DNA from: Mycolicibacterium aichiense
Lineage (GTDB): Bacteria > Actinomycetota > Actinomycetes > Mycobacteriales > Mycobacteriaceae
Assembly (NCBI RefSeq): GCF_010726245.1
Contig: NZ_AP022561.1
Span: 5,332,001 to 5,396,000, forward strand
DNA: 64,000 nt
Direction: 5' to 3'
Within the stretch, counting starts at the first letter, position 1; each line of letters begins with the position of its first letter. Under the pieces are notes generated by a model. It saw only the letters and a list, made by a program, of their open reading frames with translations, did not search any database and had not been told where the DNA came from. Positions 37,022-64,000 of this stretch are shown piece by piece. The position numbers and the translations under genes were made by a program.

Positions 37022-38047
37022 GTGTCTGGCCCCACCCCACCGGCTCCGGCCGCCATCGACGTCGCAACCCAGGTGGTTTACTACCTGAGCTTGTCGATTC
37101 CGGTCGGAATCGGGCTGACCGCAGGCGCTTTGGCGATCCCCGAGTCGCGGGGCGGTCGCGTCGCGCAGCAGGTTCGCATACTCGCCGTTCCGGCCGCGGT
37201 TGTCGTACTGCTCGGTGTCGCGCTGCAGTTCCGTGCCACCGCGCACCTCAGCGTGATGACACTCGCCCAGCTGCTCGCGCTGATGCTGGCCGCCTGCGGG
37301 TTGGTGGCGCTGCGATGGAATCAGTCGCGGACGCTGCCGCTCGGCGTCGCCGCGGTTGCGGCGGTCGCGGCGGTGATCCCCGAAATCCCGCTGCAATTCG
37401 TCAATCTGACTCGGGTGGTGTCGAACGCGCTGACGGCGGTGCACGTTCTCGGTGCGATCACCTGGGTGGGTGGACTGGTGGTCCTGTCCGCGACAGGAAT
37501 TGCTCTACGGCGCAATACGACTCGAGACGACGAGGGCGTGGCGGCGGACTGGGCGCGGATCTGGGAGCGGTTCAGTCTGATCGCGATGGTTGCGGTCGGT
37601 GCGCTGGTGGTCAGCGGCTCTTGGCTGGCGTGGAGCCACGTCGGAACGCTGGACCAATTGCTCACCACCGCTTACGGGCGCGCGCTCGCGGTCAAGCTCG
37701 TCCTGGTGGTCCTGCTGCTGTGTGCCGGCACATACAACGTACGGGTGCTGCTGCCGCGCATCCGTGCCCTGCAGTCCAGCGGCGAACCTCACGGCCTTTT
37801 TCACCTTGCCGCCCAACACTTTCCCGCGGTCGTCCTCGCCGAAGCCCTGGTGGCGATCTGCGTACTGACCGTGGTTCCGTTCCTGCGCGGGTCGGCGCGC
37901 GCCCAAGCGGGCAGCCCTGCGGCGGTGTCGTTCGACCTGGGCACCTTCGGCGTGGGGGCCGTGCTGATCGCAGCGGTCGCGGGCGCCATGTGGGTGGGTA
38001 GCCGCCGGCCGGTCACGCCCCTTGCGCCCAGTATGCCTGCGCCTTGA
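37022..38047 (+). CDS. CopD-domain membrane protein, 341 aa
   Basis: GTG 37022 (VSGPTPPAPAAIDV) is chosen; the longer frame from 36152 overlaps the PrimPol gene. Eight to nine hydrophobic helices are seen, for example VVYYLSLSIPVGIGLTAGALAI, ALTAVHVLGAITWVGGLVVLS (with H-x-x-x-x-x-x-W-x-G-G, the CopD-type signature), FSLIAMVAVGALVVSGSWLAW and ALAVKLVLVVLLLCAGTYNVRVLLPRI. CopD proteins move copper across the membrane. The last 35 bases overlap the convergent siderophore-interacting gene. No copper-binding partner is adjacent. Confidence 0.82.
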   Translation: MSGPTPPAPAAIDVATQVVYYLSLSIPVGIGLTAGALAIPESRGGRVAQQVRILAVPAAVVVLLGVALQFRATAHLSVMTLAQLLALMLAACGLVALRWNQSRTLPLGVAAVAAVAAVIPEIPLQFVNLTRVVSNALTAVHVLGAITWVGGLVVLSATGIALRRNTTRDDEGVAADWARIWERFSLIAMVAVGALVVSGSWLAWSHVGTLDQLLTTAYGRALAVKLVLVVLLLCAGTYNVRVLLPRIRALQSSGEPHGLFHLAAQHFPAVVLAEALVAICVLTVVPFLRGSARAQAGSPAAVSFDLGTFGVGAVLIAAVAGAMWVGSRRPVTPLAPSMPAP

Positions 38048-38749: not shown

Positions 38750-39628
38750 TCAGACGATTCGCGTACCGGACAGCGGGTGCAGCGCAGCAAGGGCGGTGGC
38801 TTGCCGTCCGGCGATATCGGTGAGTCCGGGCACAGGCGCCGGTCGGGCCGGGGGTTCTTCGGTGCGGATCGCGACGCCGGCCTTGACATCGGTGACCGTC
38901 GAGGGGCCCGCGATCTCCACCACCGTCCAGATCTCCTGCGCCCCGGCGGCACTCACTCCGCCGAGCACCGTCTGCGGATCGGCAACGCTGTAGGTGGTCA
39001 GGTGGCCGCGCGAGTCAGCGACCGATCGCCATCGCTCACGCGCATTCGCCGCGGCCAGGGCGGGCACGTCTGCGGCGTCGACAAGCGTGGCAGTCCAGCC
39101 GGTTTCATGCAGATGGCCGGCCAGGCGGCGACCCGCGTTCTCGGCGGTCTGATGCAGCGGGATCTGCGCCGACCGGCCTTGCAGCGCCGCCAGGTTCCGC
39201 GCGCCACTGAAGGTCAGACCGATCCACGTCGTGGTCGAATCCGGAGTCGCGCGGGTGGTGACGCGAACGGCATCGCACACCACTCCGTAACGATCGAGGT
39301 AGCCGGTCAGCAGGCCGAGGGGCAGCTCGCCCTGTCGGCTGTCCACCCGTAGCAGAACAGTCGCGACCACGTCGGTTCCCGTTCCGCGGATCTCGGCGAA
39401 GGCGCCCTCAATCGGTCTGCGGCTCAGCAGAAGTCGCAGCCGACGCCACAGGATCGTGGTCAGGAACTGACTGCGCCACCAGATCAGCGACACCAGCACC
39501 ACACCGACTGCGATACCGAGCGCCCACCGATCGGTCATCGACCGCCAGGGGTATGCCAGCACCGCCGTGGCGATCGCCAACCCGACAACGGTGAGCCGAC
39601 CGGCGCTCGGTCCCTTGACATCAGTCAT
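38750..39628 (-). CDS. eccE3: ESX-3 component EccE3
   Basis: A 292-residue membrane protein. Two N-terminal helices (LTVVGLAIATAVLAYPW and WALGIAVGVVLVSLIWW) precede a cytoplasmic domain (LSRRPIEGAFAEIRGTGTDVVATVLLRVD). This matches EccE, which forms the outer rim of the ESX membrane complex with EccB, C and D. ATG 39628 overlaps the mycP3 stop by 4 bp. It precedes the siderophore-interacting gene. Confidence 0.9.
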   Translation of the reverse strand: MTDVKGPSAGRLTVVGLAIATAVLAYPWRSMTDRWALGIAVGVVLVSLIWWRSQFLTTILWRRLRLLLSRRPIEGAFAEIRGTGTDVVATVLLRVDSRQGELPLGLLTGYLDRYGVVCDAVRVTTRATPDSTTTWIGLTFSGARNLAALQGRSAQIPLHQTAENAGRRLAGHLHETGWTATLVDAADVPALAAANARERWRSVADSRGHLTTYSVADPQTVLGGVSAAGAQEIWTVVEIAGPSTVTDVKAGVAIRTEEPPARPAPVPGLTDIAGRQATALAALHPLSGTRIV

Positions 39629-41007
39629 TCTCGTTCTTCCTTGCGTCTGCGGGTGACGACCGCGACCACGATGACGGCAGCGGCGAGCACGGCCGTTCCG
39701 ATAAAGGCCACCGTGCGCGGGGTGTGATCGACCGGCGTTGGCGGTGTCGGTGCCGCAACGCGTGTGGTGACCGGTGCCGTGTCACCGGCCGGACTGACGG
39801 TCCAGGTGAGGGCGCCGACCGGATCCAGCGCTCCGGCACCGACCAGGTTGGACGGTGCCTGCGCCGCGTTGTGCGCAGTTGCCGTCAGGCGCCGGATCAC
39901 CTCGTCGGAGCGCATGCCCGGGTTGCGGCTGCGGACCAGTGCGGCGGCTCCGGCGACATAGGCGGCGGCGAAACTTGTTCCGTCCAGCGGCGACATCCCG
40001 CCGCGCCCGTCGGGCATGCCGTTGGCCAGCCCACCCACCGCATCGTTGCTCAGCGATACGACGTTCTCTCCGGGCGCGGCGATGCCCACCCACGGGCCGG
40101 CCATGGTGAAGTCGGTCGGTTGTCCGTCGGCGGTCAGCGCCGCAACCGAAAGGACGTAGGGCTGCCACCACGACGGGACCGATACCGAACTGACGCCCGC
40201 CCAGTTCCGCGGATCCCCGGGGCTGGTCGAGTCGCCTGCCGGGTTCGACGCGCACTGGGTGCCCGGCGTGCCGTCCATGGAGGCCCCGGCATTTCCCGCC
40301 GCGGCGACGATGACGACGTCCTTGTCGATCGCGGCGTAGCGCAACGCTGCGCCCAAAGTCTGCTGATCGCTTAGCTTGTCAGGCTTCAGACAGGTGGTGG
40401 TGGAGATGTTGATGACGGTGGCGCCAAGGTCGGCGGCATGAACTACCGCGCGGGCCAGGGTTTCGATCTCCACGTTTGCCTGGACCGACGCCGGGTCCTT
40501 CCCCCCGGCGCTGGGTGAGAACCGCGGCGAGGCCTGCCGGATCGACAGCAGCCGCGCCGACGGTGCGACGCCGCTGAATCCGTCGGGTCCGGGTTGCCCG
40601 CCAATGATCCCGGCCACCAGCGTGCCGTGGCCATCACAATCCGTCAGCCCATCGCCCGAGGCGAGGTAGTCGCCGCCGCCGACCACATTGGGTAGCCGTG
40701 GGCCCGGCCGGACACCGGTGTCGATGACGGCGACGGTCTGGCCTTCACCCCGCGAATACTGCTGGGCTCCGGCCAGATCGAGCATCACCGAATTGGGGCT
40801 CACGGCAGCTGGGTCACTGCCGGGACGCACACCGGTCGTCACGCATTCGGACCGCTGGGACATCCCCGCGGTGGGTCCGACGGTCCCGGCCGGGGGCTGC
40901 GCCCCGGGGTCGGCGACGGGCGGGTTCACGGCGCCGGCTGCCGGCGCAGCCATCAGCAGTACCACCGCGGCGACCGCGGCGGCCCGCATCATCGATCGAG
41001 TACCCAT
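39625..41007 (-). CDS. mycP3: Mycosin-3, membrane-anchored subtilase
   Basis: ATG 41007 (MGTRSMMRAAAVAAVVLLMAAP) gives 460 residues, the length of M. tuberculosis MycP3; it overlaps the eccD3 stop by 19 bp. A signal peptide is followed by the catalytic triad in VAVIDTGVRPGP (Asp, ~95), DGHGTLVAGIIGG (His, ~126) and LDGTSFAAAYVAGAAALV (Ser, ~344). The tail ends in a single membrane helix (AFIGTAVLAAAVIVVAVV) and RRRKEERE. The protease stabilises the ESX membrane complex and processes substrates in some ESX systems. Confidence 0.92.
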   Translation of the reverse strand: MGTRSMMRAAAVAAVVLLMAAPAAGAVNPPVADPGAQPPAGTVGPTAGMSQRSECVTTGVRPGSDPAAVSPNSVMLDLAGAQQYSRGEGQTVAVIDTGVRPGPRLPNVVGGGDYLASGDGLTDCDGHGTLVAGIIGGQPGPDGFSGVAPSARLLSIRQASPRFSPSAGGKDPASVQANVEIETLARAVVHAADLGATVINISTTTCLKPDKLSDQQTLGAALRYAAIDKDVVIVAAAGNAGASMDGTPGTQCASNPAGDSTSPGDPRNWAGVSSVSVPSWWQPYVLSVAALTADGQPTDFTMAGPWVGIAAPGENVVSLSNDAVGGLANGMPDGRGGMSPLDGTSFAAAYVAGAAALVRSRNPGMRSDEVIRRLTATAHNAAQAPSNLVGAGALDPVGALTWTVSPAGDTAPVTTRVAAPTPPTPVDHTPRTVAFIGTAVLAAAVIVVAVVTRRRKEERE

Positions 41008-42380
41008 GTGAAGACGCCCACGAGATAGGCCATCACGGGGATCAGCGATGCGTCCACCCCGGCGGCGAGGAAGCCCACCAGGCGGCGCGCCGGTAGCGAA
41101 TAGCGTTCGGCGGAGGCAGTATCCGGATTGACGGCAACGATCACCCACACCGCGGTGAGCGCTCCGAGCATCACGAGAGCCCACAGCGCGGCAATGAAGC
41201 GGTGCTGCGCGGCGAACGCGACCAGTAGTCCTGCGGTCACCAGGAACGGTTGAGCGAGCAGCCAGCCCTTGCACGCCGCGGTGTCCCACACCCTGGCGCG
41301 GAGCACGGCCGCGGCTGCCGCGGCCACCACCAGATACCAGCCCCAGACCCCGGGACCTTCGGTGCGCCCGGCCACGATCAGCGACCCGGCACTGGACAGC
41401 AACACGCTGCCTGCGATCACACCGGTCTGGTGCGCTTCGGCGACCCGGACCCGGCGCGGCAGATCGGTGAGCAGGCGGGCCGCGGGGCTCGACGGCGTCG
41501 GATCACCGGGGGCCGGGATCACCGGCAGCGGGAACCGGGCCCACATCGCCGCGAGCGCGGGGGCCGAGACGGCGAGCAGCAGGGCAACCAGGATCAGGGC
41601 ACAGCCAACCGTCCGGGCGGGTAGTTGCCACAGCGCCGCGGCGCCGGCGACCAGCAACACGCCCACTCCGACAACAGCTGTGGCGGTGAACAACCCGACG
41701 CCGTCCTCGGTCTGGGTCAACACGATCAACGACCACGCGGCCACCCCGGCCGCGGCCAGCATCACATGCGGCGATCCCCACAGTCCCGGCACGGCCAGCC
41801 AGAATGCCGACGCGATGGGCAGCAGAGCCGCCGCCGACACCTCGGTGGCGAGCCGGGCGGACCTGGCCCGCAACACCAATCCGGTGACCGCGGTGAGCAC
41901 AGCCAGGGCGGCGACCGCGTACAGCCCGATCGTCGAGGCGGTCACGGTGCGGTGGGTTATCGCCACCGCGGACAATGCCACCACGAACACCGCGGCGGCC
42001 AGTCGCGCGCCCAGCTGCAGACGGTGCGGCCCCCAGGGCCGGGTGCGGGCGGCCGAGAAGATGACGGCGGCGTCGGCGACGTCCTCCACCACCCCGGGTG
42101 CGGTCGGTCCAGTCGGAACAGGCTGCAGCGCAAGCAGATCACCGTCCACCACACCGACGGTGTCCAGACTCGCGTCCACGCTGAACGGCGGGCCGCCGAT
42201 CGGGGCGAGGGTCATCGGGCTGGGGCTCGCGGTCTCGTCGTCAGAGTCCGGCGGCACCAGCCGCTTCACCGCGGGCAGGATCTCGCGCAGTGGCAACTCC
42301 GCGGGCAGCGCCACGTCGGTGATCCGGCCATACGCCAGAACGGCGACCCGCACGATCGGCAGCACCGGGGTTTCGGTCAT
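40989..42380 (-). CDS. eccD3: ESX-3 membrane channel subunit EccD3
   Basis: A 463-residue protein: an N-terminal ubiquitin-like domain (IVRVAVLAYGRITDVALPAELPLREILPAV, residues 1-90) and about eleven membrane helices, for example LAAAVFVVALSAVAI, LYAVAALAVLTAVTGLVL and LILVALLLAVSAPALAAMW. EccD forms the hydrophobic dimer cavity of the inner-membrane complex. It follows espG3 by 18 bp and overlaps mycP3 by 19 bp. Confidence 0.92.
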   Translation of the reverse strand: MTETPVLPIVRVAVLAYGRITDVALPAELPLREILPAVKRLVPPDSDDETASPSPMTLAPIGGPPFSVDASLDTVGVVDGDLLALQPVPTGPTAPGVVEDVADAAVIFSAARTRPWGPHRLQLGARLAAAVFVVALSAVAITHRTVTASTIGLYAVAALAVLTAVTGLVLRARSARLATEVSAAALLPIASAFWLAVPGLWGSPHVMLAAAGVAAWSLIVLTQTEDGVGLFTATAVVGVGVLLVAGAAALWQLPARTVGCALILVALLLAVSAPALAAMWARFPLPVIPAPGDPTPSSPAARLLTDLPRRVRVAEAHQTGVIAGSVLLSSAGSLIVAGRTEGPGVWGWYLVVAAAAAAVLRARVWDTAACKGWLLAQPFLVTAGLLVAFAAQHRFIAALWALVMLGALTAVWVIVAVNPDTASAERYSLPARRLVGFLAAGVDASLIPVMAYLVGVFTWVLDR

Positions 42381-42398: not shown

Positions 42399-43238
42399 TC
42401 AATTCGTGGTGAAGTCGCGTGTCAGCGTGGCGGACGGGTACCAGCGGCCATCCGGCAGCGTGGCGGTGAGCCGGTCGAGCGCCAGCGCGATCGCGAACGG
42501 GCTGCCCGGCGAGAACGTCGACAGCCACTCCCCGTCGGCCGCGCGTTCGGGGTTCACCAGCACGCGACCGGCGTCGCTGTCGACGATGCCGACGCCGACC
42601 TCGCTGAGGCGGTGGACACCGTCATGGGCGGAGCCGGCGCGGATCTCGACGTAACTGCGCGGTCCGGTGAACACCGATCGCACCACCGGGACCGCCGAGC
42701 CCGGGATGCCCAGATTGTCGAGGACTCGGTCGAGATCGGCTCCGCCCCGCAACTTTTCGTCGGCCCGGACCCCGGTTCTGGTCGGCAGGGTGAACTCCGC
42801 GAACCGTGCCGGTGAGCGGTCGGCCAGCCCGGCGGCAACGACCAGAGCAAGCGCCAACGGGTCGCTTATGTCGAGTTCGGTGAGAGTGACCAGCTCCGCA
42901 CTGCGCAGCGCCACCACCGTGTGGTCTCCGCGGCGCGCCACCAGGCCGCGCAACATCTCGGCACCGGTACCCCGAACGTAGCGGAGCTCGAGCCACCGGT
43001 CCGGCGCGCAGACCGTGCGTGTCCAGCGGGCCACCGCGGGTGCCACCGTCCCGTCCTCGCGCATCACCCGTGCGCGGGTCAGCTCGGCTCGTAACCGGGC
43101 CAGGATCGCCGGGGCCTCACGCTGGTCGGCCACCGCAGGCGTGATCGCCAGCACCCACGGAAACGAGCCTGCACCAACGCTTTCAGCGACGCACCATGCG
43201 GCGTCGGCGGTCAACTCGACCGCGTTAGGTGCGGCCAC
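42399..43238 (-). CDS. espG3: ESX-3 cytosolic chaperone EspG3
   Basis: A 279-residue protein from GTG 43238, 3 bp after the esxH stop. It shows the quasi-2-fold EspG fold: [52 protein letters not shown] and the second half with [35 protein letters not shown]. EspG proteins bind the tip of their cognate PE-PPE pair, here PE5-PPE4, and keep it soluble for secretion. Confidence 0.91.
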
Positions 43239-43241
43239 GTC

Positions 43242-43529
43242 TCAGCCCCACTTGGCGCCTTCGGCTTGATCACGCGCATGCATCGACAGAGTGTTGGTCT
43301 CGTGGGTGCCCGCAATCGCCCGGTACGCGCGCACCAGTTCCTCCATGGCGAGGTTCCACTGCGCCTGCCATGCCTGGTAGGTCATCCCGCTCTCGCCTTG
43401 CCATGCCCCCTGCAGGGCGGACTGCTCAGTGGCGATATCGGCGCCGACTGCCTGCAGTGTGCCTGCGTAGCCGGCCATATCACCGGCATGCCCCAGCATG
43501 GCCGGGTAGTTGTACATGATCTGAGACAT
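43242..43529 (-). CDS. esxH: WXG100-family secreted protein EsxH
   Basis: A 95-residue helical-hairpin protein, one base overlapping esxG. The turn motif is AWQGESG (W-x-G) near residue 43, and the second helix ends in the secretion-type pattern before [12 protein letters not shown]. EsxH forms a heterodimer with EsxG; the M. tuberculosis pair binds zinc and acts in metal acquisition and in blocking host ESCRT. Its adjacent mbt genes fit the iron role. Confidence 0.93.
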
Positions 43530-43822
43530 CAGAACCCCCCATAAGTCGTTGCCGCTGCGGCATCCTGGGCCACATAAGTTGCGCCGGCCTCACCGAGGTT
43601 CACCTGCGCGATGTCGAGCAGCGAGTTGACCTTTGCGGACACCTCGACGAACCGCGCATGCGCGGCTTGGAAAGCGGCCGAGGACTCGCCCATATGGAAC
43701 GCCTGCGCAGACATTGCGGCTTGTTCCGCCTGTGCGATAGTGCTGCGCATCAGCGCCGTCTTGGCGCCGAAGGCCGCCTCGGCGGCCACGAGTTGCGGTA
43801 TGTGCGCATCCAGCATGCTCAC
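43529..43822 (-). CDS. esxG: WXG100-like secreted protein EsxG
   Basis: A 97-residue protein, identical in length to M. tuberculosis EsxG. It starts [24 protein letters not shown] and has a short turn (HMGESSAAF, an S/M-x-G variant in place of WxG), then the second helix with [15 protein letters not shown] at the end, which fits the Yxxx(D/E) secretion signal. It is the partner of EsxH. The gene follows ppe4 by 13 bp. Confidence 0.93.
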
Positions 43823-43835: not shown

Positions 43836-45374
43836 TCATTCTCGGTGGTGATCTCTGTCGGACGGATCGCTGTCCCACGTGGCCGGAAGCATCGGTGTGA
43901 CAGGGCTTTCGTGGTGTGTGTCGCCGGTGAACTCGGTCAGACCCGCGGCCGTCACATCGCGAGCTTTGGTCGCGGTGCCGGTGAATCCGAGCGTTCCCGC
44001 ACCCCGGTCGGAGGACGACGTGCTGGGCGGCGCAGCCGGTTCGGCGGGTACGCCGGTGTCGCTGTTGAGGTCCATGTACTCGTCCCGGTGCCCGCGGTCC
44101 TTGAGTCGCTGGGCACGTCGCCGCTGCGCGCGTTCCTTGGCTTGCACCGAGGACAGCGCAGCCGCGGCGGGTGCCGCCTCGGACACCGGGGCCTTGGCGC
44201 CGCTGCCCTCGGTCAGTGACGGGCCAGGGCCGTCGTCGGGGTCGACCCCGCCGACTGCGTAGAACATCGCCTGCGCTGCCGGTGCCGGTGCCGCCGGTGC
44301 CGGAGCGGAGGCCGGTGTACCGGTGGCTGTCGGTGCGGCGGGCGCGGTGGCGGGAACGGACGGCGCCGCCGACGACACCGGCCAGACGTTGGGTTGCCGC
44401 GCTTGGATCGGTGCCGGGGCCGGATCGGGCGCGACATCCGGGGCGGCCGGATTCGGTATCAGGGTCAACAACCCGAGCAGCGGTAGCGCGGCGACCAGGA
44501 GCATCGGGGCCCACAGCGGTGAGCTCAAGACCAATCCCCACGTGGTCCACCCGAGCGGCTGGAAGATCGCCTGGTACAGCAGCGCGGACAGCAGCGGACC
44601 CCAGGTCTGCCAGGCCTGGACCGGGTTGGTCAGGAAATCGACGATGATCTGCTGAAGGCTCTGAACCGGATGGGTGAGAAAGTCCCAGATCAGATCGCCG
44701 TCCGGGAGGGACTTGATGTACGCCTCCAGCAGGTCCAGGATGCTGTTCGAATTGGTCAGCGCCGAACCGGATTCGCCGGCCTGCGGTTGCGCAGCTGTCG
44801 ACAGGGCCATCGTCGACGATGCGGCTTCTGCGCCGGGCAACACGATCGCCGGAGCGGGCACGCTGCGGGGGGCCGCGGCCAGGGCGGTGCCTGCGACGGT
44901 CTGGTAGACACTCATCGTGGTGGCCGCCTGGATCCACATCCGGACGTAGTCCGCCTCGTTCAGGGCGATGGGGATCGTGTTGATACCGAAGAAGTTGGTG
45001 GCCATCAGCACCCCGTGCACGGTGTGGTTGGCGGCCAGTTCGGGCAGCGTCGGCATCGCGGCCAGCGCCGCGGTGTAGGCGGCAGCGGCCGTCTGCTGCT
45101 GGGCGGCTGCCCCGGCGCTGTGAGCGCTGGCCTGCTCGAGCCACGCCAGATAGGGCGCGTGGCTCACGACGTACTGCTCTGCACTCGGACCCTGCCATGA
45201 TCCGGCCTGAACAGCAGCGAGGATCTGGGTCAGTTCGGCTGCGGCGTCGGCGTATTCGACGCTCAGCGCCTCCCACGCAGCGGCCGCGGCGAGCATCTGA
45301 CCGGCGCCGGGGCCGGCACTCAGCAGCGCCGAATGCACCTCGGGGGGCGACGCGAACCAGATTGGCGCGGTCAT
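43836..45374 (-). CDS. PPE4: PPE family protein PPE4-type
   Basis: ATG 45374 ([18 protein letters not shown]) gives 512 residues, against 513 in M. tuberculosis PPE4. The PPE motif is at residues 10-12, the WxG is [12 protein letters not shown], and the helical core covers the first 180 residues. A hydrophobic part follows ([16 protein letters not shown]), then a Pro/Ala-rich stretch and a charged C-terminal tail ([23 protein letters not shown]). It pairs with PE5 and is delivered by EspG3. It is linked to iron-mycobactin uptake in M. tuberculosis. Its start overlaps the pe5 stop by one base. Confidence 0.92.
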
Positions 45375-45685
45375 CAGCCTCCCCGTGCGATCACGTAGGA
45401 GCCCGCCGCGGCGGCATCTGTCGCGGCGTAACCGGCTGCCGAGTCCCCCACCGCACCGCCGGATCGGGCGAGCTCGGTCGCGCCCTGGGTGGCCGTCGCG
45501 GTGTGCTCGAGTCCCTGGGCGCTGAAGCCTGCTGCTGTCTGCAGCGAGACGGCGTCCGAGCCGGGCGGGAGCACTGCTGTGATCAACGGTGCGGCAGCCG
45601 CGTTCGCGGCGGCCAATCGCGCCGTCAGGGCCGCCACCTGGGCGCTGGCCGCGGCCAGTCCCTCTGGGACAACACGCAGAGTCAT
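45374..45685 (-). CDS. PE5: PE family protein PE5-type
   Basis: A 103-residue PE protein with Pro-Glu at residues 7-8 ([20 protein letters not shown]) and two long Ala-rich helices; the C-terminus GSYVIARGG has the Yxxx(D/E)-like end region less clearly than usual. Only the PE domain is present. ATG 45685 overlaps the eccC3 stop (ATGA), so translation is coupled. Confidence 0.9.
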
Positions 45686-53122: not shown

Positions 53123-53333
53123 ACTGTCGAGTCGCTGAGCGCAGGCTCTTCGGCCGGATATCCGACCAGTTCTGCTCGACGAACTCCGCACAGTCCGCCC
53201 GGCTCGCTACGCCGAACGCGATCTCCCAGCCGCTGGGGATGTCGGCGAACGCCGGCCACAGGCTGTGCTGTTCCTCGTCGTTGACCAGGACATAGAAGCG
53301 GCCGTCCTCGTCGTCAAATGGATTGGTACTCAA
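53121..53333 (-). CDS. mbtH: MbtH-like NRPS accessory protein
   Basis: A 70-residue protein, MSTNPFDDEDGRFYVLVNDEEQ in its first part, then HSLWPAFADIPSGW and NWSDIRPKSLR. The motifs NxEEQHSLWP and GW and the S-x-x-x-NW-D-x-RP ending define the family. MbtH-like proteins bind and activate adenylation domains of the cognate NRPS. It is closest, in my memory, to MbtH of M. tuberculosis. It overlaps the 3' end of mbtG by 20 bp. Confidence 0.93.
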   Translation of the reverse strand: MSTNPFDDEDGRFYVLVNDEEQHSLWPAFADIPSGWEIAFGVASRADCAEFVEQNWSDIRPKSLRSATRQ

Positions 53334-54603: not shown

Positions 54604-57600
54604 GATGTCACCCCCGCCAGCTCGTGCAGAATGTCGGCCCAGATCTGTTGCAGCGCGGCGACATCCGTCGTGCTGAAGATGTCGGGCACAGTTCGCCACT
54701 GGGTGACCAGCTTTCCGCCGGCGACGGCGGCGACCAAGGTCAATTCGTGCCGCACCGCGACATTCGGTTCGGTCATGATCGACAGCTGGGCAAGCAGACC
54801 GCGGTCCAGCAGCGCTCCGGCATCGAGGTCGAGCCTGCCGAGGTAATTCAGGAGTACCTGCGGACCGTGGAACCCTCGCAGCAGCTCGGCGGTGTCCTGC
54901 CTCAGGTAGCGCAGCGCAGCGTAATCAGTTGATTCGCCGGGAATCTCGGGCATCGGGTATCCCGGACGGATCCGTAGCGGGTAGATGGCGCTGAGCAGGC
55001 CGACCGTATCGTCCGCGCCGGTGCGGCCGTGGGTCTCCAACGCCAGCAGCGGAACCGGGCTGACACCACCGCGCCGCTCGCGCCAGCGAGTGATCAGGCG
55101 GGCACAGGCATCGGCAAGGAGGTCTTGGATCGGTGTGCGAGCGCGCAGCAGTGCGCCGGTGACGTCGGCCTCGGTGACCGTCACGGTGATCGCGAGGTCG
55201 GCGAACCGATCCTCCCCGGGGCGCACCCGCCGGTCCCCCAGCGCCGGATCTTCGCCGTTTATCTGCGCGAGCCAGAAACCGACGGTGTCGAGTCCGGCCG
55301 CACGGTCGGCAAGGCTGTGCGCCCACCGGCGATAGCTGACCTGTTCACCGCTGACCGGGCCGAACTCGGCCGCACCGGCCGCCGACCAGTTGGCCAGCAA
55401 CTCGCCGAGCACGACGCGCCATGACGCGGGATCCATCGCCAGGACGTGGACGACCATTACCAGAACGCCCGGCTCGCCGGGGCCGTGCAGCCACAGCGCT
55501 TCGGTCAGGTGGCCGCCCTCGGGATCGAGCCGTTCGATAGCGGCGGCCGCGTGTTCGGCGACGGCGTCACCGAGCTCGCCGGACACCACGACCTCGGCCA
55601 GGGGGATGTGGTCTCGACCGGCCGGAACGAACGTCATCGTCGCGCGGTCGAGGCGGCTGCGGAACATCTCGTGCCCCGCGGCGATCCCGTCCAGCAGCAG
55701 ACGCAGCCGCTCGGCGGTCGCGTCGGCGGGCAATCGGATCGCCTCGACCTGCGACAGGCGTCGCGGGTCGCCGTGCTCATAGAGCCAGTGCACGGCAGGC
55801 AGCGCGGGGATCGGGCCCTGTGGCTCCGGCCCGGCGGCGAGTTCGTCGTCGGTGTCGCGATCTACTGCGGCCGCGAGTTCGCGCAGCGTGCCGCACTCGA
55901 GGACCAGCCGAGCGCGCAGCGACAGCCCACTGCTGCGCGCCAGCTGGACCAAGGACAGCGCGGCGATGCTGTCGAGCCCCAGCTCCAGCAAGTCGGCGTC
56001 GAGGTCGACGGCGGGAAGGCCAAGCAGCTCGGCGACGGCTCGGCCAAGAGCGACCTCGGTCGGGGTGCTCGGCGGCTCCGGCACCTCGTCAGGCAACACG
56101 GTGCCCGCCAGGGCCGCCTCGTCGACCTTGCCGTTGGCGGTCAGCGGCATCGTGTCGACGATGATCAGCCGGTGCGGAAGCATGTAGCGCGGCAACCTGT
56201 CCCGCAGCAGCGGTCGCAGCTGCGCCACCGTCACGTCACCGGTGACATACGCGACCAGCCGGGGACCTGCGGTCTGCCCCTGCACCGCGACGTGCACATG
56301 CCGTACCCCGGGCATCTCTTCCAGTACCGCCTCGATCTCACCGAGCTCGACACGATGCCCACGGACTTGGATCTGGGCGTCGGCTCGGCCGACGAAGGCC
56401 AGCGCACCGTCCTGATCCCGGCGCACCAGATCGCCGGTGCGGTACATCCGGGCACCGCCCGGGGCAGCGACGAACCGCGTCGCGGTCTCGGCCGGGCGGC
56501 CGAGGTAACCCCTCGTCACCTGATCGCCGGCCAGATACAGTTCGCCCACCACACCGTCGGGGACGGGCTGCAGCCACGAGTCGAGGACCGCGGCGCGTGT
56601 CGTTCGTGTCGGATAACCGATCACCGGTGTGTCGTGCTCGGCAATCGCGGCGACGACGGCCTCGACGGTCGTCTCAGTCGGGCCGTAGCAGTTATGCGCC
56701 GCCAATAGCGGTCCGGTGCAGGCTTTCCGAATATCGGTCCAGTCCCCCGCGCCAACCGCTTCACCGCCGAGCGCGAGCACCGAGAGTCGCCCAGAATCCA
56801 GCAGACCGGCCTGACGCAGACTGGTGAACAGCGAGGGGGTGACGTCGAGCATGTCGATGCCGTCCCGTTCGATGATCTCGACGAGTACCTCGGCATCCCT
56901 GCGGTCATTCTCGGAAATGATGTGCACGGCGTGGCCGAACAGCAGTCCTGCCAGCGGTTGCCAGGCGGCGTCGAACGCGAACGACCAGGCGTGGCCGATG
57001 CGCAGCGGCCTGCCGAGGCGTTCGGCCGCCGGCGTCAGCATGCGCTCGGCATGGTCGTCGATGTAGGCGAGCAACGCCGCATGAGTTCCGATGACACCCT
57101 TGGGTTCTCCGGTGGTGCCGGAAGTGAATACCGTGTAGGCGGCCTGGCCGGGATGGACTGGCACGCAGAGGTGCGGTGCGGTTCGGGCGGCGGCCATCGT
57201 GGTGTCGTCGATGACGATGGCAGCTCCGGTCTGGCCCAGAATGGACTCCACCCGGCCCGCCGGCATCGCTGGGTCCAGCGGCACACACATGCCGCCGGCC
57301 TTGAGTACGGCGAGCATCGCCACCACGTAGTCAGCGCCTCGCGGGAGCTGGATCGCAACCGGCGTCTCCGCGCGGACACCGCGGTCGGCCAGGAACCCCG
57401 CGACCCTGTCCGACTGCTCGTCGAGCTCGTGATAGCTCAGTTGGCCGCCATTCCACCGAAGTGCGATGGAATCGCGATGCGCGACAGCGGTTTCGGCGAA
57501 CCGCTCGGCTAACCCGGCCCCGGCGGTGCCCGCGGGCATCTCGATCGGTGGTAACTCACCCCCGAGGAGGATTCCGACTCCGCCCAGCGGTCGGTCCCAC

Positions 57601-58871
57601 TCCTCGATCAGACGGCGCATCGTCTGCAGCACGCGACGGCCGAGCGTCTCCGGCGACATCATCCCCAACGCGTTGTCGGTGACCTCGACCAACAGTGTCA
57701 GCTCAGTGGTGTTGCGGTAGGCGGCGACCGTCACCGGGAAGTGGGTCAGGCTTTCCATCGCCGCCGGCCGGAAGGTGACGTCGCCTGCGGAGAACTGCTG
57801 ACCGCCGACCACGCCGCCGGGCGGAAAGCTCTCGTAGACCAGCAGGGTGTCGAACATCTCGCCGACGCCGGCCAGTGTGCGCAGCTGCGAGTGGCTCAGG
57901 TAGCTGTGGTCGCGCAGTTCGGCGGCGTCCCGCTGCAGCGCCGAACAATGCTGTCCGACAGTCCTGTTCGGGTCGAGACGCACCCGCAGCGGAAGGGTGT
58001 TGATGAACAGGCCGACCATGGTTTCCACGCCGGCGAGTTCGGGTGGGCGACCGGACACGGTGACCCCGAAGACGATGTCGTCGCGATCGGTCAGCCGGGA
58101 CAGGATCAGCGCCCAGGCCATCTGCATCACCGTGTTGAGAGTGACGCCCCGAGACCGGGCCGCGGCGGCCAGTAGTTCGGTATCGGCAGCGGGCAGCGAC
58201 AGCTCGGTGCGCTTCGGCAGCCCCGATCCGTCGCCACCCAGTGCCGGCGACAACAGTGTCGGCCCGGGCAGGTCGGCGAGGTACCTGCGCCAGAGGAGTT
58301 CGCCGGCCTGCTGATCACGCTCGGTCAGCCAGCCGATGTAGTCCCGGTACAACCGCGGAGTCGGCAGCGCGTCGAGATTGCCACCGACGCGGTACAGGGT
58401 GAGCATCTCTCCGATGAACACCGGCAGCGACCAACCGTCGAGCACGATGTGGTGCGCGGTGACCACCAGTCGCCAACGCTGATTCGACAGCTCGATGAGC
58501 AGGAACCGGATCAGCGGACCGTCGTGCAACGCGAACTGCCTGCCGCGTTCACGTCGTTCGATATCGGCGGCGTGGCGGTCATCGGTGGCCGACAGATGCT
58601 GCCACGGCAGTTCGACTGTGGCAGGCACGATCTGGACCGGTTGCGGTAAATCCTGGTGCCAGAAGCTGGCCCGCAGGTTGGGGTGGCGCACCAGCATCGC
58701 CGCCGCGCAATCGCGGAGCAGCCCGATGTCCAGCGGGCCGGTCACGTCGGCCGTCATCGCGATGACATACGGGTCGTCGCCGTCCGGACCGATCAGCGTG
58801 GCGTGCGAGTACAGCCCCAGCTGCAGAGGCGAGAGCGCCAGGACGTCCTCGATATCGACGGCATTGGTCAC
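54600..58871 (-). CDS. mbtF: NRPS, MbtF-type: C-A-T-E
   Basis: GTG 58871 overlaps the upstream stop as GTGA; 1423 residues. Domain order: C (1-430, intact AHHIVLDGWS), A (440-920, YTVFTSGTTGEPKGVIG, YGPTETTVEA), T (about 930-1000, LLELGLDSIAALSL), and an E-type domain (1010-1423). In the last, the HHxxxDG motif has become VHVLAMDPASW, so the second His is missing, while LETHGRTG and NYLGRLD of E domains are kept. By hand alignment the A pocket reads D-A-Q-D-A-G-C-V-E. The terminal domain fits the caprolactam-forming end of mycobactin assembly, proposed for MbtF, but that is inference. Confidence 0.88.
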   Translation of the reverse strand: MTNAVDIEDVLALSPLQLGLYSHATLIGPDGDDPYVIAMTADVTGPLDIGLLRDCAAAMLVRHPNLRASFWHQDLPQPVQIVPATVELPWQHLSATDDRHAADIERRERGRQFALHDGPLIRFLLIELSNQRWRLVVTAHHIVLDGWSLPVFIGEMLTLYRVGGNLDALPTPRLYRDYIGWLTERDQQAGELLWRRYLADLPGPTLLSPALGGDGSGLPKRTELSLPAADTELLAAAARSRGVTLNTVMQMAWALILSRLTDRDDIVFGVTVSGRPPELAGVETMVGLFINTLPLRVRLDPNRTVGQHCSALQRDAAELRDHSYLSHSQLRTLAGVGEMFDTLLVYESFPPGGVVGGQQFSAGDVTFRPAAMESLTHFPVTVAAYRNTTELTLLVEVTDNALGMMSPETLGRRVLQTMRRLIEEWDRPLGGVGILLGGELPPIEMPAGTAGAGLAERFAETAVAHRDSIALRWNGGQLSYHELDEQSDRVAGFLADRGVRAETPVAIQLPRGADYVVAMLAVLKAGGMCVPLDPAMPAGRVESILGQTGAAIVIDDTTMAAARTAPHLCVPVHPGQAAYTVFTSGTTGEPKGVIGTHAALLAYIDDHAERMLTPAAERLGRPLRIGHAWSFAFDAAWQPLAGLLFGHAVHIISENDRRDAEVLVEIIERDGIDMLDVTPSLFTSLRQAGLLDSGRLSVLALGGEAVGAGDWTDIRKACTGPLLAAHNCYGPTETTVEAVVAAIAEHDTPVIGYPTRTTRAAVLDSWLQPVPDGVVGELYLAGDQVTRGYLGRPAETATRFVAAPGGARMYRTGDLVRRDQDGALAFVGRADAQIQVRGHRVELGEIEAVLEEMPGVRHVHVAVQGQTAGPRLVAYVTGDVTVAQLRPLLRDRLPRYMLPHRLIIVDTMPLTANGKVDEAALAGTVLPDEVPEPPSTPTEVALGRAVAELLGLPAVDLDADLLELGLDSIAALSLVQLARSSGLSLRARLVLECGTLRELAAAVDRDTDDELAAGPEPQGPIPALPAVHWLYEHGDPRRLSQVEAIRLPADATAERLRLLLDGIAAGHEMFRSRLDRATMTFVPAGRDHIPLAEVVVSGELGDAVAEHAAAAIERLDPEGGHLTEALWLHGPGEPGVLVMVVHVLAMDPASWRVVLGELLANWSAAGAAEFGPVSGEQVSYRRWAHSLADRAAGLDTVGFWLAQINGEDPALGDRRVRPGEDRFADLAITVTVTEADVTGALLRARTPIQDLLADACARLITRWRERRGGVSPVPLLALETHGRTGADDTVGLLSAIYPLRIRPGYPMPEIPGESTDYAALRYLRQDTAELLRGFHGPQVLLNYLGRLDLDAGALLDRGLLAQLSIMTEPNVAVRHELTLVAAVAGGKLVTQWRTVPDIFSTTDVAALQQIWADILHELAGVTS

Positions 58872-61800
58872 GACGGGCGGGCCTTCGACCACGACGACTT
58901 CAGGGCGGCCAGGTCGCCTGCCGACAGTCCCGACACGCTCATCGCCTCGTGCCGGGTGTCGGCTCGGCCGGCAGCCGGGTCGATGTGCCCGTCGTCGATC
59001 GCGGCGGCCAGCGCCGCCACGGTCGGATGGGCGAAGATCGTCCGGGGTTCCACCGCCAGGCCGGCGGCCCGGATCCTCGCCGCGAGCTGCACCGACATGA
59101 TGCTGTCTCCACCCAGTTCGAAAAAGTCGTCGTCCCTACCGATCTCGGCAACGTCGAGCAGTTGCTCCATCGCTGCGGCGACGGACCGCTCGGTGTCGGT
59201 GCTGGCCGGCTCACTCGCACCGGTGGTATGCACCTCGGGCCGTGGCAGCGCGGGGCGGTTCAACTTCCCGGATTCGGTCGCGGGCATGACGTCGAGGACC
59301 GAGATCGTCGCCGGTGTCATGTAGCCCGGCAGTGCCGCAGCCACCGATGCGCGCACCGAGGCGGCAAACGCCGCGGGATCGTCCACCGGATCCCGCGGTA
59401 CGACGTAGCCGGCCAGCGAGGCGCCGCTGGCTCCGTCCCAGGTTCGCGCGGCCGCGACGGCTACCCCCTCGGCGGCCTTCAAGGCGGCTTCGACTTCGGC
59501 GAGTTCCACCCGGAACCCGCGCACCTTCACCTGGTGGTCGGTGCGGCCGACGAACTCGAGATGCCCGTCCTCGGTCCACCGTCCGCGATCGCCGCTGCGG
59601 TAGAAGCGCGATCCCGGCTCGGCCGCATAGGGATTCGCGACGAAGCGAGATGCGGTCAAAGCGGGCTGCTTCCAGTACCCACGTGCGATCTGTTCACCGG
59701 CGTAGTACAGCTCCCCGACGACACCGACCGGCACCGGTTGCAGAGCCTCGTCGAGCAGGTAGACCTGTGACCCCTCCATCGGTGTGCCGATCTTGGGGAT
59801 GGGCAGATCCAGCGGTCCGCGAATCAACGCGCCCGAGGTTTCAGTGGCGCCGATCGCGTTGAGCAGCTCCATGTTTCGCGCCGCGCCCTCGCCCACACAG
59901 GAGACCAACCGCTGCAGCAGCGAAACGCTCACCGGCTCGCCACAGGTCACCAGCCTGCGCAATGCGCGCACCGCGGTCGGCGCGTTGTCGACAAGCGCGG
60001 AAACCAGGCTGGCAACACCGGTGACCTGAGCAACGGAGTGCCGCTGGATCAGTCCCGCGATCGCCTCGGCGTCGCGGTGCTCTGCGTCGTCGGCGATGAT
60101 CAGTGTCGCACCGGCCGCCAGGCCGGCCAGCGTCTCGATGCACCCCTCCAGGAAGGTCATCGGCGCCTGCGCGAGTCGGATGTCCTGTCCCGGAACCGGA
60201 TAGTGCTTGAGCTGCCAGGTCAATCTGGTGCTCATCGCACGATGGGTGCCCACGACACCCTTCGGTTTTCCGGTGGAGCCCGACGTGAACATCAGGTACA
60301 TCGGGTCGTCGGGGTGCGGCTGGGGCAAGAGGGCGACGGGATCACTGGACGCCAGCTCGGCGCGGACCGCCGGATCGTCCATCGAGATCACCGTGACCCC
60401 GTCGGCGGGCGGCATCGACGCGCCGGCCTCCGCGGTGACCACGACGACGGCGGGTTGGACGTCGGCGAGCATGAACTGCTTGCGCGCGACGGGATAGGTG
60501 GGGTCCAGCGGGAAGAACCCTGCACCGGCTTTCATGATGCCGACGAGCGCGACCACCAGATCGATCCCACGCCGCATCGACATGCCGACCAGGGATCCCG
60601 GGCCGGCGCCGTGGCGCGCCAGCAGCTGGGCGAAGCGATCCGAACGCTGATGCAGCGCGGCGTAATCGAGCTCATCACCGGCGCACCGCAGCGCGACCCG
60701 GCCCTGACCCAGCGCCCGGCCGGCCTCGAGCAGTCCCGGAACGGTGCGGGGCCGGTCGACCGGCGATGCGATGCCTCGGCTCTGCCCGAGCACCTGCTGC
60801 CGCTCGGACGCGCCGAGCAGGTCGACATCACGCAGCCGGACATCAGGATCGGCGGCGAATGCGCCGATGACCTGACCGAGCCAACCGGCGAAGCGCTCCA
60901 TGGTCGACTGGTGGTACAGCTCGGTGCGGTAGATCACGTGTCCGCGATAGCCGTCGTCACCGACGAAGAAGTTCACGCTCAGGTCGGCGTGGGCCACGTC
61001 GAATGTCGGTTCCAGGGCGGTGAATCGGGTGTCACCGTCCGGGCCTGCCTCGATCAGCTGGTTTTCGGGAAGCTCCTCGCGAACGTGGACGACCACCTGG
61101 AAGAGCGGGTTGCGGGACAGCGACCGCACCGGGTTGACCGCGTCGACCACCCGGTCGAACGGGAGGTCTTGGTTGGCGTAGGCCGCCAAGGCCATCTCCC
61201 GCGAGCGCAGCAGGATCTCACGCAGCGTGGGATTACCCGACAAATCGTTGCGCAACACCAGGATGTTGACGAAAAAGCCGATCAGCCGGTCCAGTTCGGT
61301 GTCGGTGCGGCCCGCAACCGGTGTGCCCAGCGGGATGTCATGACCACCACCGGCTTTGGACAGGACCACTGCGACGACGGTTTGCAGCAGCATGAACTCG
61401 GTGATCCCGAGCTCGCGACTCAGCGCGGTCAGCCGGTCTCGCACAGCGGTACCGAAGTGCACCGGGATGGCCGCACCGGCCCCGCCGGCCATCGGCGGCC
61501 TGGGCAGATCCGGGCGCAGGCCGGTGTCCTCGGGAAGTTCGTCGAGTTCGCGCACCCAGAACTGCCGTTGCGCATCCATCAATTCGGTGTCGGACAGCAA
61601 CTGGATCTGCCAGGCGGCGTAGTCGCGGTACTGGATCGGCAGCGGCTGCCAGGACGGCTCGGTGCCCTGCCGTCGCGCCCGGTACGCGGTGAGAACGTCG
61701 GCGAACAGCACCCCGGCCGACCAGTGGTCGGCGGCGATGTGATGCACGACCATCGACAGCACGCATTCGCCGGGTGTGCGCAGCACGGCGACGCGGATCG

Positions 61801-64000
61801 GCAGTTGGGTTTCGAGCTCGAACCGATGTCCCCGCTCGGCATCGAGTTGCGTTGTCAGCCAATCGTTGTCGGGACCGTCGAGTAGCCGGACCGCAGCGCT
61901 GGCGCCGGCGTTGACAACCTGATGGGCTACGCCGTCGATCTCGCGGTAGACGGTGCGCAGGATCTCGTGCCTGCCGATCACGTCGTGCACGGCGGCAGCC
62001 AGGGCGTCGGCATCGCAGGGGCCGGTCAGGCGCGCAGCGAACGGGATGTTGTTGACCGGGCTGGGTCCGTCGACGCGGTATTGGAACCAGCTCCGCAGCT
62101 GGGCGGCTGACAGCGGTGCGCTCGCAGGGTCGCCCCCGGCGGCGACCAGCGGCGGCCGGGCCGACGTCGCCTGACGGTCGCGGCACCCATCGATCACCGC
62201 GGCGAGCTCGCCGACGCTGCCGGCTTCGAAGATGTCACGAACGGTGACCTCGACGCCGCAGGCCTCGCGGATCGCGGCCACCAGTTTGGTCGCGAGCAGC
62301 GAGTGTCCGCCGAGGGCAAAGAACGAGTCGTCACAACCCACGTCGCCGGCACCGAGTAGCCGGGTGAACAGAGCGGCGACGGTGCGCTCGGTCTCGGTGA
62401 CCGGTGCACGGTAGTCGACCACCGGCCCGATCTCGGGTGCCGGCAGGGCAGCCCGATCCAGTTTGCCGTTGGCGGTGACCGGGATCTCGTCGACGACGAC
62501 GTAGGCGGCCGGGATCATGTAGTCCGGCAACGCGGCGGCGACCCGGATCCTGATCCGCTCGACGTCCACGACATCGCCGGCCGCCGGTGCCACGTAGGCA
62601 ACCAGGCTCTTGCCGAGCTGGGGCAGGTCGGCGGCAACCACGACCGCATTTCCGACACTCGGGTCCACGGTGACGGCCGCGGCGACCTCGCCGAGCTCGA
62701 TGCGGAAGCCGCGGATCTTGACCTGTTCGTCCGCGCGGCCGACGAACTCGAGGTCGCCGTCCCGGTTTCGCCGTGCCAGGTCGCCCGAACGGTAGAGCCG
62801 TCCGCCGGGAGTGAAGGGGTCGGCGACGAACCGTTCCGCGGTCAGCGCCGGCCTTTCGTGGTATCCGTGCGCCAGTTGCGTTCCACCGATGTAGATTTCA
62901 CCGATCACATCGGTCGGCACCGGCCGCAAAGCGTCGTCCAACAGGTAGATCGCGGTGTTGATCTTGGGAGTGCCGATCGGGACCACCCGGGTGCCCTGCC
63001 TGCCCTCGACCTTGTAGCGGGAGGCATTGATGACCGTCTCGGTGGGCCCGTAGAAGTTGTGCAGCAGTGCGTCGAAGGTCGCGTGGAATTTGTCAGCCAG
63101 TTCTCCGGGCAGCGCTTCCCCACCGATCGGCACTCGCCGCAGGCTGCGCCACTGCTCGACGCCGGGCAGCGACAGGAACAGCCCGAGCAGCGACGGCACG
63201 AAGTGCATCGACGTGATGGCCTCGCGCTGCAGCAGATCGGTGAGATAGCCGATGTCCCGTAGTCCGCCGTTGCGTGGGATCACCAGGCGGGCACCTTGGC
63301 CCAGGATTCCGAAGGTCTCACCGATCGACACGTCGAAGCTCGGGGACGCCACCTGCAGGAGACGGTCGCCGGGACCGATCTGGTATTCGTCGGCGAACCA
63401 CCGGAAGTAGTCAGCGACGGGACGGTGCGGTACCGGCACCCCCTTGGGCTGTCCGGTCGACCCGGAGGTGTAGATCAGGTAGGCGGTGTTGGCCGGACCG
63501 AACGGGCGCACCAGATCCGACGGACCGGGGTCGCGGTCGGGGAAGTCATCGACACCGGTGATGGGTTGGCGGATCACCATTTTGGGATCTGCGTCGCCGA
63601 GGATGTAGGTGATGCGGTCGGCCGGATACTCGGGATCGACCGGCAGATAGACCGCGCCGGCTTTGGCGATACCCAGCGCGGTGATGACCAGCTCCGGCGA
63701 CTTGTCCAGCAGCACCGCGACACGATCTTCGGCACCGATGCCCTGGGCGGCGAGCCAGTGCGCGTGCCGGTTGGCCGCCGCGTTCAGCTCACGATAGCTG
63801 TAATGGCGGTCCTCGTAGACGACGGCGATCGCGTCCGGCTGGCGAACGGCTTGCTCGGCGACCAGGTCACCGAGTGTCATCGGTGGGCAGGCGTACTCCT
63901 CACCCCGGGACATCTCGAACAACCGCGCGGTGTCCGCCTCGTCGATTACGGCCAGATCGGCCAGCACCCGATCCGGATGGGACAGCGCGTCCTCGAGGAG
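58868..64000 (-). CDS. mbtE: NRPS, MbtE-position, dimodular: (C)-A-T-C-A-T, N-terminus beyond window
   Basis: The frame is open to base 64000; the visible 1710 residues start in a C-A linker. First A domain: IYTSGSTGQPKGVPVPHRP and FYGPTETVIN; pocket by hand D-V-G-H-P-G-F-I-N. Then T (GGHSLLATKLV), C (VVHHIAADHWS), a second A (FTSGSTGKPKGVVG) and T (LGGDSIMSVQL). The second A domain is atypical: the A4 core Phe-Asp-x-x becomes TFLEGCIE, with Leu at the residue that normally binds the substrate amino group, and YGPTE becomes IGATE. MbtE of M. tuberculosis is about 1680 residues in total, so this protein, at about 1710 before its N-terminal C domain, is larger. Mycobactin-type assignment rests on position and on mbtG/mbtH. 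Confidence 0.8.
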   Translation of the reverse strand, partial: LLEDALSHPDRVLADLAVIDEADTARLFEMSRGEEYACPPMTLGDLVAEQAVRQPDAIAVVYEDRHYSYRELNAAANRHAHWLAAQGIGAEDRVAVLLDKSPELVITALGIAKAGAVYLPVDPEYPADRITYILGDADPKMVIRQPITGVDDFPDRDPGPSDLVRPFGPANTAYLIYTSGSTGQPKGVPVPHRPVADYFRWFADEYQIGPGDRLLQVASPSFDVSIGETFGILGQGARLVIPRNGGLRDIGYLTDLLQREAITSMHFVPSLLGLFLSLPGVEQWRSLRRVPIGGEALPGELADKFHATFDALLHNFYGPTETVINASRYKVEGRQGTRVVPIGTPKINTAIYLLDDALRPVPTDVIGEIYIGGTQLAHGYHERPALTAERFVADPFTPGGRLYRSGDLARRNRDGDLEFVGRADEQVKIRGFRIELGEVAAAVTVDPSVGNAVVVAADLPQLGKSLVAYVAPAAGDVVDVERIRIRVAAALPDYMIPAAYVVVDEIPVTANGKLDRAALPAPEIGPVVDYRAPVTETERTVAALFTRLLGAGDVGCDDSFFALGGHSLLATKLVAAIREACGVEVTVRDIFEAGSVGELAAVIDGCRDRQATSARPPLVAAGGDPASAPLSAAQLRSWFQYRVDGPSPVNNIPFAARLTGPCDADALAAAVHDVIGRHEILRTVYREIDGVAHQVVNAGASAAVRLLDGPDNDWLTTQLDAERGHRFELETQLPIRVAVLRTPGECVLSMVVHHIAADHWSAGVLFADVLTAYRARRQGTEPSWQPLPIQYRDYAAWQIQLLSDTELMDAQRQFWVRELDELPEDTGLRPDLPRPPMAGGAGAAIPVHFGTAVRDRLTALSRELGITEFMLLQTVVAVVLSKAGGGHDIPLGTPVAGRTDTELDRLIGFFVNILVLRNDLSGNPTLREILLRSREMALAAYANQDLPFDRVVDAVNPVRSLSRNPLFQVVVHVREELPENQLIEAGPDGDTRFTALEPTFDVAHADLSVNFFVGDDGYRGHVIYRTELYHQSTMERFAGWLGQVIGAFAADPDVRLRDVDLLGASERQQVLGQSRGIASPVDRPRTVPGLLEAGRALGQGRVALRCAGDELDYAALHQRSDRFAQLLARHGAGPGSLVGMSMRRGIDLVVALVGIMKAGAGFFPLDPTYPVARKQFMLADVQPAVVVVTAEAGASMPPADGVTVISMDDPAVRAELASSDPVALLPQPHPDDPMYLMFTSGSTGKPKGVVGTHRAMSTRLTWQLKHYPVPGQDIRLAQAPMTFLEGCIETLAGLAAGATLIIADDAEHRDAEAIAGLIQRHSVAQVTGVASLVSALVDNAPTAVRALRRLVTCGEPVSVSLLQRLVSCVGEGAARNMELLNAIGATETSGALIRGPLDLPIPKIGTPMEGSQVYLLDEALQPVPVGVVGELYYAGEQIARGYWKQPALTASRFVANPYAAEPGSRFYRSGDRGRWTEDGHLEFVGRTDHQVKVRGFRVELAEVEAALKAAEGVAVAAARTWDGASGASLAGYVVPRDPVDDPAAFAASVRASVAAALPGYMTPATISVLDVMPATESGKLNRPALPRPEVHTTGASEPASTDTERSVAAAMEQLLDVAEIGRDDDFFELGGDSIMSVQLAARIRAAGLAVEPRTIFAHPTVAALAAAIDDGHIDPAAGRADTRHEAMSVSGLSAGDLAALKSSWSKARPS

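Follow-up and report, generated by a model that had tools for sequence, protein, structure and literature searches.

A mycobactin cluster joined to ESX-3 in one clade of Mycobacterium: probable relocation and loss of the polyketide synthase arm

Introduction

How do the genes that make a siderophore, the secretion system through which it is put to use and a reductase that could free its iron come to lie in one block of a mycobacterial chromosome, and does their being together matter? The question is raised by a 64,000-nucleotide stretch of Mycolicibacterium aichiense (the window: bases 5332001-5396000 of NZ_AP022561.1, the single 5.93 Mb contig of genome G000), on whose minus strand, from high to low coordinates, mbtE, mbtF, mbtG and mbtH of a mycobactin-type (mbt) cluster are followed by ESX-3 and then by a gene for a siderophore-interacting reductase (SIP; Table 1). 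In other species ESX-3 is needed for iron uptake from mycobactin, as PMC4791881 and PMC9505556 report. An initial annotation made from the window had read the block as mbt synthesis genes, ESX-3 for use and SIP for probable reduction joined on one strand, and family searches and the positions of open reading frames (ORFs) bear out its coordinates, its gene order and this joined make-up, including the 14 bp between the eccE3 stop and the SIP gene.

The comparison with related genomes leads us to regard the block as a lineage-specific iron-acquisition locus, formed by relocation and containing an assembly line free of polyketide synthases (PKSs), a reading to which, taken whole, we give a probability of roughly 0.57. 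What is real is a relocation confined to this clade, which brings two known systems together and is accompanied by loss of the PKS arm; the functional importance of the join and the substrate of one MbtE domain we infer.

Results

The ESX-3 part runs eccA3-B3-C3-PE-PPE-esxG-esxH-espG3-eccD3-mycP3-eccE3 on the minus strand, with EccA-E, MycP, EsxG/H, PE/PPE and EspG all in ESX-3 order. EccA3 is 71-79% identical to single-copy relatives of other mycobacteria among the matches listed, and the next EccA match in G000 reaches 38%; by these values and by the usual ESX-3 neighbours the system is closer to ESX-3 than to other ESX systems. EccA, B, C, D, E, MycP and EsxH passed NCBIfam cut-offs, and MbtH, MbtG, PE, SIP and the nonribosomal peptide synthetase (NRPS) domains passed those of Pfam; the NCBIfam search of the window proteins gave no match for espG3, esxG and PPE, which are named from position or first residues.

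The distribution of the join was surveyed by seeking EccA3 in 297 Mycobacterium genomes (251 matches with an E of 1e-150 or below) and MbtG in 70 chosen genomes (66 with a match at 1e-60) and in all 297 (218 with a match at 1e-195), which gave both coordinates, among the matches listed, for 116 of the 297 and left 181 not placed. In 18 of these 116 the starts of the mbtG and eccA3 matches are separated by 1.6-2.1 kb; another 48 have both on one contig at a distance of at least 573 kb, and in 50 they are on different contigs. All 18 belong to one clade, with M. rhodesiae JS60 and ENV421 among its members, which we take to be among the rapid growers. They are the genomes whose EccA3 is at least 80% identical (19 genomes), with the exception of M. 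litorale F4 (G009), which has the relocated ESX-3 and SIP and no MbtG at E 1e-60. Ten of 80 named EccA3 loci have mbtG-mbtH-eccA3 (L007-L016: ENV421, D4_Bin_10, P1-5, BK086, UC10, M. pinniadriaticum, M. vinylchloridicum, M. rhodesiae JS60, shizuoka-1 and M26), some of the 70 without mbt having little sequence before eccA3. The order is thus as unusual among mycobacteria as the initial annotation had held. A common mycobacterial order is rejected by these counts, and a misassembly by the occurrence of the same join in one complete chromosome and 17 other genomes.

Both blocks are missing from the places where they would be expected. In conventional genomes ESX-3 is flanked by relatives of the window genes at 22.6-24.9 kb, and in G012 its other flank is a relative of the window gene at 21139-22587; these old neighbours touch in seven of the eight clade flanks read (G000, G293, G241, G295, G172, G136 and G284), the eighth being that of G009, where the old slot was not seen and is not judged. 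In the same seven genomes the new ESX-3 site lies before fadD2, about 15 kb from the old slot. The clade shares with the usual ESX-3 the gene order from eccA3 to eccE3 and the iron box before eccA3, and differs from it in being upstream of fadD2, with mbtH before and SIP after; fadD2, the first gene past SIP common to conventional loci, lies there upstream of ESX-3. As for mbt, its conventional slot between hemN and hrcA measures 27.4 kb in G012 and 41.7 kb in G110, and between 0.5 kb (G241, G295) and 7.7 kb in ten of ten clade genomes, gaps too short for an mbt cluster. Since both sites lack their block in the clade, both blocks left their usual sites, probably once. Relocation, as initially proposed, is therefore the best explanation, but not in the form of one block moving beside the other. 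A leftover PPE gene, sought as an insertion mark between the sulfatase gene and mbtK, had no match in G241, G295 and G284, where by eye this interval holds ABC-transporter-like and other ORFs.

The two empty slots could also mean that mbt, ESX-3 and SIP arrived together by horizontal transfer and replaced the native copies, for which the long stem of the clade ESX-3 (0.19), the GC content of the block (0.675-0.712, slightly above most of the remaining window) and four clade members with a second ESX-3 copy at 74-76% may likewise be cited. We consider this improbable, because the clade ESX-3 groups within Mycobacterium, only 15 kb separate the new site from the old and relatives of MbtG occur on 3 of 72,556 plasmid records, all below 60% identity, so that a plasmid origin is not supported. 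The extra ESX-3-type EccA copies (74-76%) are those of G018 (C28), G184 (C16), G172 (3590422) and G241 (828569); in the stretches read, those of G018 and G184 had no conventional ESX-3 neighbours.

In the rpoB protein tree the 16 sampled of the 19 clade genomes form one group (99/97), and in the rpoB DNA tree, rooted by choice on G016 and G150, the clade groups with G012, G084 and G011 (98/99). In the tree of EccA3-B3-C3, G012, G084 and two second copies join the clade (100/99); separate from these stand a group containing M. leprae, M. gordonae and M. triplex, and two genomes of another genus of the family (G303 and G332), which we take to be Segniliparus.

These two genomes resemble the clade in that an ESX-3-type eccA directly follows mbtH on the same strand, near other mbt genes, but differ from it in that mbtH and eccA overlap or abut and that mbtI and mbtA lie beside them on other strands. 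In G303 eccA overlaps the mbtH stop within an mbt region (L110, 1-420), and G332 has, besides its mbtH-linked eccA (L113, 1-560), another eccA within a complete ESX-3 elsewhere; no SIP match was found in the stretches read of either. One could then suppose that the join is ancestral, predates the split between Segniliparus and Mycobacterium and was broken up in most mycobacteria, as the direct mbtH-eccA succession in both genomes, the mycobactin genes mentioned for the S. rotundus ESX-3 in PMC4791881 and the tree of EccA3 alone, in which the clade falls, weakly (86/77), outside the 21 remaining Mycobacterium rows, would allow. Such an origin nonetheless seems improbable: the clade has a spacer with an iron box where G303 and G332 have an overlap, its nesting in the EccA3-B3-C3 tree would require many losses, and the hemN-mbt-hrcA and ESX-3 sites are common to the conventional genomes read. 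Origins separate from that in Segniliparus are favoured by the unlike junctions and by the three-protein tree, but not by EccA3 alone.

The case of G009 bears on the order of events. Three flank proteins, one of which (29752-31992) is presumably an acyl-CoA dehydrogenase by synteny, place it with G176 (90/95) in a tree where the sulfatase row of G176 is missing, and they reject the linked genomes as a group without G009 (p-AU, approximately unbiased test, 0.009). The rpoB protein agrees that G009 belongs inside the clade (97/87). Apparently, then, and with some doubt, G009 lost its mbt genes inside the clade; that it represents the state before their arrival is disfavoured by the flank proteins.

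The mbt part has the order E-F-G-H of the canonical mbt-1 cluster (hemN-mbt-hrcA), as initially noted, yet it is not that cluster. Of the mbtA-D genes expected beyond position 64000, mbtB and mbtA are present, and the PKS genes mbtC and mbtD were not found. With mbt-1 it shares MbtA, B, E, F, G, H and I, an mbtA divergent from mbtB and iron-box-like sites; it differs in the lack of mbtC and mbtD, in an MbtE with a full second module and in its place beside ESX-3. The MbtB, MbtE and MbtF NRPSs, MbtG and MbtH are present by Pfam, in the same order in relatives, and the Chorismate_bind protein and the AMP-binding MbtA are the predicted salicylate synthase and salicyl-AMP ligase. In addition, mbtK is joined to the block, whereas PMC9505556 puts it in a separate mbt-2 cluster; mbtK matches also adjoin mbtH in the second clusters of G150 and G071.

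The loss is seen both in the spacing of genes and in direct searches. The mbtB-mbtE interval of conventional clusters (G012, G046 and G084) measures 4.9-5.2 kb and holds, in G046, a ketosynthase and an AT-KR-ACP protein, while in all eight clade clusters read besides that of the window 5-131 bp separate the MbtB and MbtE matches. The MbtC of G046 gave, among the matches listed, a best match of at most 48% in frames of at least 1519 aa in each of the 19 clade genomes, 69-89% in the controls G110, G071, G150, G012 and G084, and 51% and 41% in the Segniliparus-like G332 and G303. Its MbtD, sought at E 1e-60 with 38 candidates per genome scored, was found in none of the 19, the controls being positive (G110 76%, G084 50%, G012 49%). 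The searched literature (titles and abstract openings, with few subscription journals) mentioned neither an mbt-ESX-3 join in Mycobacterium nor a PKS-free mycobactin, and the loss of the PKS arm in the clade, of which no mention was found there, is new here.

PMC9505556 assigns the hydroxy acid moiety to MbtC-MbtD, and PMC7413640 describes mycobactins with a central 3-hydroxybutyrate group. What could supply this unit in the clade is suggested by the second adenylation domain (A2) of MbtE. The Asp of the A4 core is kept in the first adenylation domain (A1) and in those of MbtF and MbtB, and A2 reads FLEGCIE instead of FDxSxxE; this Asp (Asp235) is the residue that binds the alpha-amino group (PMC11355689), and in keto-acid-activating domains its place is typically taken by an aliphatic residue (PMC10949194). 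In nine of nine clade MbtE proteins A2 keeps cores A3, A5 and A10 with the Asp replaced. The dN/dS ratios of four pairs (A2 0.087-0.146, A1 0.091-0.159, condensation (C) domains 0.115-0.267) are, for A2, similar to those of A1 and at or below those of the C domains. The A2 domain is absent from the MbtE of G012, G084 and G332. The pattern is best explained by two coexisting routes to the hydroxy acid, of which different lineages kept different ones; in the clade, A2 probably activates the free hydroxy acid for the central ester unit directly. That A2 is instead a relic, the hydroxy acid being loaded in trans by another PKS, is unlikely: clade genomes do have other multidomain PKS genes and A2 does coexist with MbtC elsewhere, but A2 keeps its motifs in nine of nine clade proteins under a constraint like that of A1, and no stand-alone MbtC- or MbtD-like gene was found in the 19 genomes within the matches and candidates described above.

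The iron box lies at the border towards eccA3, where it had first been placed, in the 82-nt spacer between mbtH and eccA3, with three mismatches to the 19-mer consensus, a fit reached in 0 of 100 shuffles. Across 100.9 kb scanned, four sites match at least 15 of 19 positions: this one, one between mbtA and mbtB and two before the 461-aa ORF preceding mbtI; 20 composition-only shuffles of the scan gave 0-2 sites each. The eccA3 box is kept at 16 or 17 of 19 in all ten linked named loci and in G009. A promoter-like TCGACA-N17-TAACTT stands just upstream of it in nine of the ten, G009 having TAATTT in place of TAACTT. Because eccA3 keeps its own promoter-like element and iron box, co-transcription of mbtH and eccA3 is not implied, and mbt and ESX-3 are likely to be neighbouring iron-controlled units. 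For M. abscessus, PMC9505556 likewise describes putative iron boxes, both upstream of mbt genes and for the esx-3 locus.

At the other end, the 14-bp gap suggests that eccE3 and SIP share one message. The SIP protein has the SIP and FAD_binding_9 domains, above curated cut-offs, in common with the domain of the mycobactin importer IrtA, chains of which are its nearest solved relatives (PDB phmmer top matches, 1.3e-38); it is 35% identical to an IrtA-like domain elsewhere in G000, from which it differs in standing alone directly after eccE3, and its reductase activity is predicted from this family membership. Of the 19 clade genomes, 12 have a full-length SIP 12-15 kb past the start of eccA3. 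The gene is fragmented beyond eccE3 in G151 (3099361-3099773) and G172 (1963196-1963387), was not found beyond eccA3 in G004, G136, G093 and G018, and is a fragment on another contig in G286, which points to repeated loss in the clade. The second mbt clusters (L100-L103) of G150 (MYC340) and G071 (MFM001) have MbtC, and a SIP relative lies 19-20 kb from their mbtG. Neutral rearrangement, with two iron-controlled blocks becoming neighbours by chance, would accommodate the separate iron-box region of each block, the ESX-3 and SIP without mbt of G009 and the several losses of SIP. It remains on the unlikely side, given that 18 of the 19 clade genomes retain the join, with identities as low as 80% for EccA3 and 73% for MbtG (among the matches listed), and that SIP and mbtG also occur near one another in the two other species just mentioned.

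Coordinates are collected in Table 1. The true start of mycP3 is probably one of the ATGs at 41007-40953, and that of mbtG may be internal to its ORF. The 461-aa ORF has, by eye, a signal-like start, a low-complexity tail and its two iron-box-like sites directly upstream; it was found in seven of the eight other clade clusters read and not in G172, in which about 17 kb (approximately 1912850-1930070) separate mbtK from mbtI, other clade clusters having only this ORF there.

Table 1. Features of the locus, in window coordinates; positions above 64000 lie past the window end.
Feature	Position	Strand	Basis
Former ESX-3 slot, now closed	22588..22596	.	flanking-gene synteny with conventional genomes
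ORF with fadD2 as residues 435-992	33972..36953	-	NCBIfam FadD2 above cut-off; synteny
SIP, stand-alone FAD-binding siderophore-interacting reductase (predicted), 240 aa	38013..38735	-	Pfam SIP + FAD_binding_9 above cut-offs
eccE3	38750..39628	-	NCBIfam TIGR03923 above cut-off
mycP3 ORF	39625..41289	-	TIGR03921 above cut-off, residues 171-552
eccD3	40989..42380	-	TIGR03920 above cut-off
espG3	42399..43238	-	position and relatives at the same place
esxH-like WXG100	43242..43529	-	TIGR03930 above cut-off
esxG-like partner	43529..43822	-	position
PPE protein of ESX-3, 512 aa	43836..45374	-	first residues
PE protein of ESX-3	45374..45685	-	Pfam PE above cut-off
eccC3	45682..49677	-	TIGR03924 + TIGR03925 above cut-off
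eccB3	49674..51200	-	TIGR03919 above cut-off
eccA3	51197..53038	-	TIGR03922 above cut-off
IdeR-type iron box, between mbtH and eccA3	53075..53093	-	motif match
mbtH	53121..53333	-	Pfam MbtH above cut-off
mbtG ORF, lysine N-monooxygenase	53314..54699	-	Pfam Lys_Orn_oxgnase above cut-off
mbtF, C-A-T-C	54600..58892	-	Pfam, two condensation stretches
mbtE, C-A1-T-C-A2-T	58868..64000, on to ~65308 (start) outside the window	-	Pfam domains
mbtB	65301-68735	-	Pfam domains
mbtA, AMP-binding, divergent from mbtB	68826-70421	+	family search
mbtI, Chorismate_bind protein	~70428-71963		family search
461-aa ORF preceding mbtI	71830-73215 (L005 9831-11216)	-	no Pfam match
mbtK-type acetyltransferase	73309-73908		family search

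Discussion

We propose that in the ancestor of the clade ESX-3 left its usual slot and mbt left that between hemN and hrcA, and that both blocks settled, with SIP following eccE3, in the interval from the sulfatase gene to fadD2. MbtC and MbtD would have gone, and the Asp-less A2 of MbtE would probably activate the free hydroxy acid in their place. Under low iron, IdeR would release the promoter between mbtA and mbtB, that before the 461-aa ORF and mbtI, and separately that before eccA3; MbtK-I-A-B-E-F-G-H would then make a mycobactin-type siderophore, ESX-3 would export substrates needed for its use, and SIP, probably from the eccE3 transcript, would reduce the ferric siderophore and free the iron. 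Regulation, enzyme activities, the A2 substrate, the transport role and the number and order of moves are what we infer in this scheme. More tentatively, and at somewhat less than even odds, the block might work as one inherited iron unit that keeps synthesis, ESX-3-dependent use and reduction together and makes a PKS-free mycobactin by way of A2 of its dimodular MbtE.

Several observations weigh against this interpretation. The place of the clade among other mycobacteria is left open by the rpoB protein, and EccA3 alone favours a position outside them, if weakly. For G009 inside the clade the rpoB DNA gives a p-AU of only 0.069, and the ESX-3 tree puts G009 first in the clade (91/82), because of which ESX-3 may have moved first. 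The hemN-hrcA gaps of 5.7-7.7 kb were judged by length. Six of the 19 clade genomes lack SIP or have it broken, and a seventh has a fragment of it on another contig. An Asp-less A2 is also found in five MbtE proteins of G110, G046, G150 and G071, which keep MbtC, and the Asp position was read from a motif alignment rather than a structure. The shuffles of the iron-box scan kept base composition only and counted one orientation with a GC filter, and the expression and chemistry side of the scheme rests on sequence.

The clade with the join, its member with ESX-3 and SIP but no mbt, and its members without SIP form a natural comparison set in which ESX-3 substrates and reductases could be matched to the siderophores that they accompany. 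From the missing PKS arm one would, moreover, predict a siderophore variant and an enzymatic shortcut, and both the value of the joined layout and the variant mycobactin assembly are open to testing in this clade.

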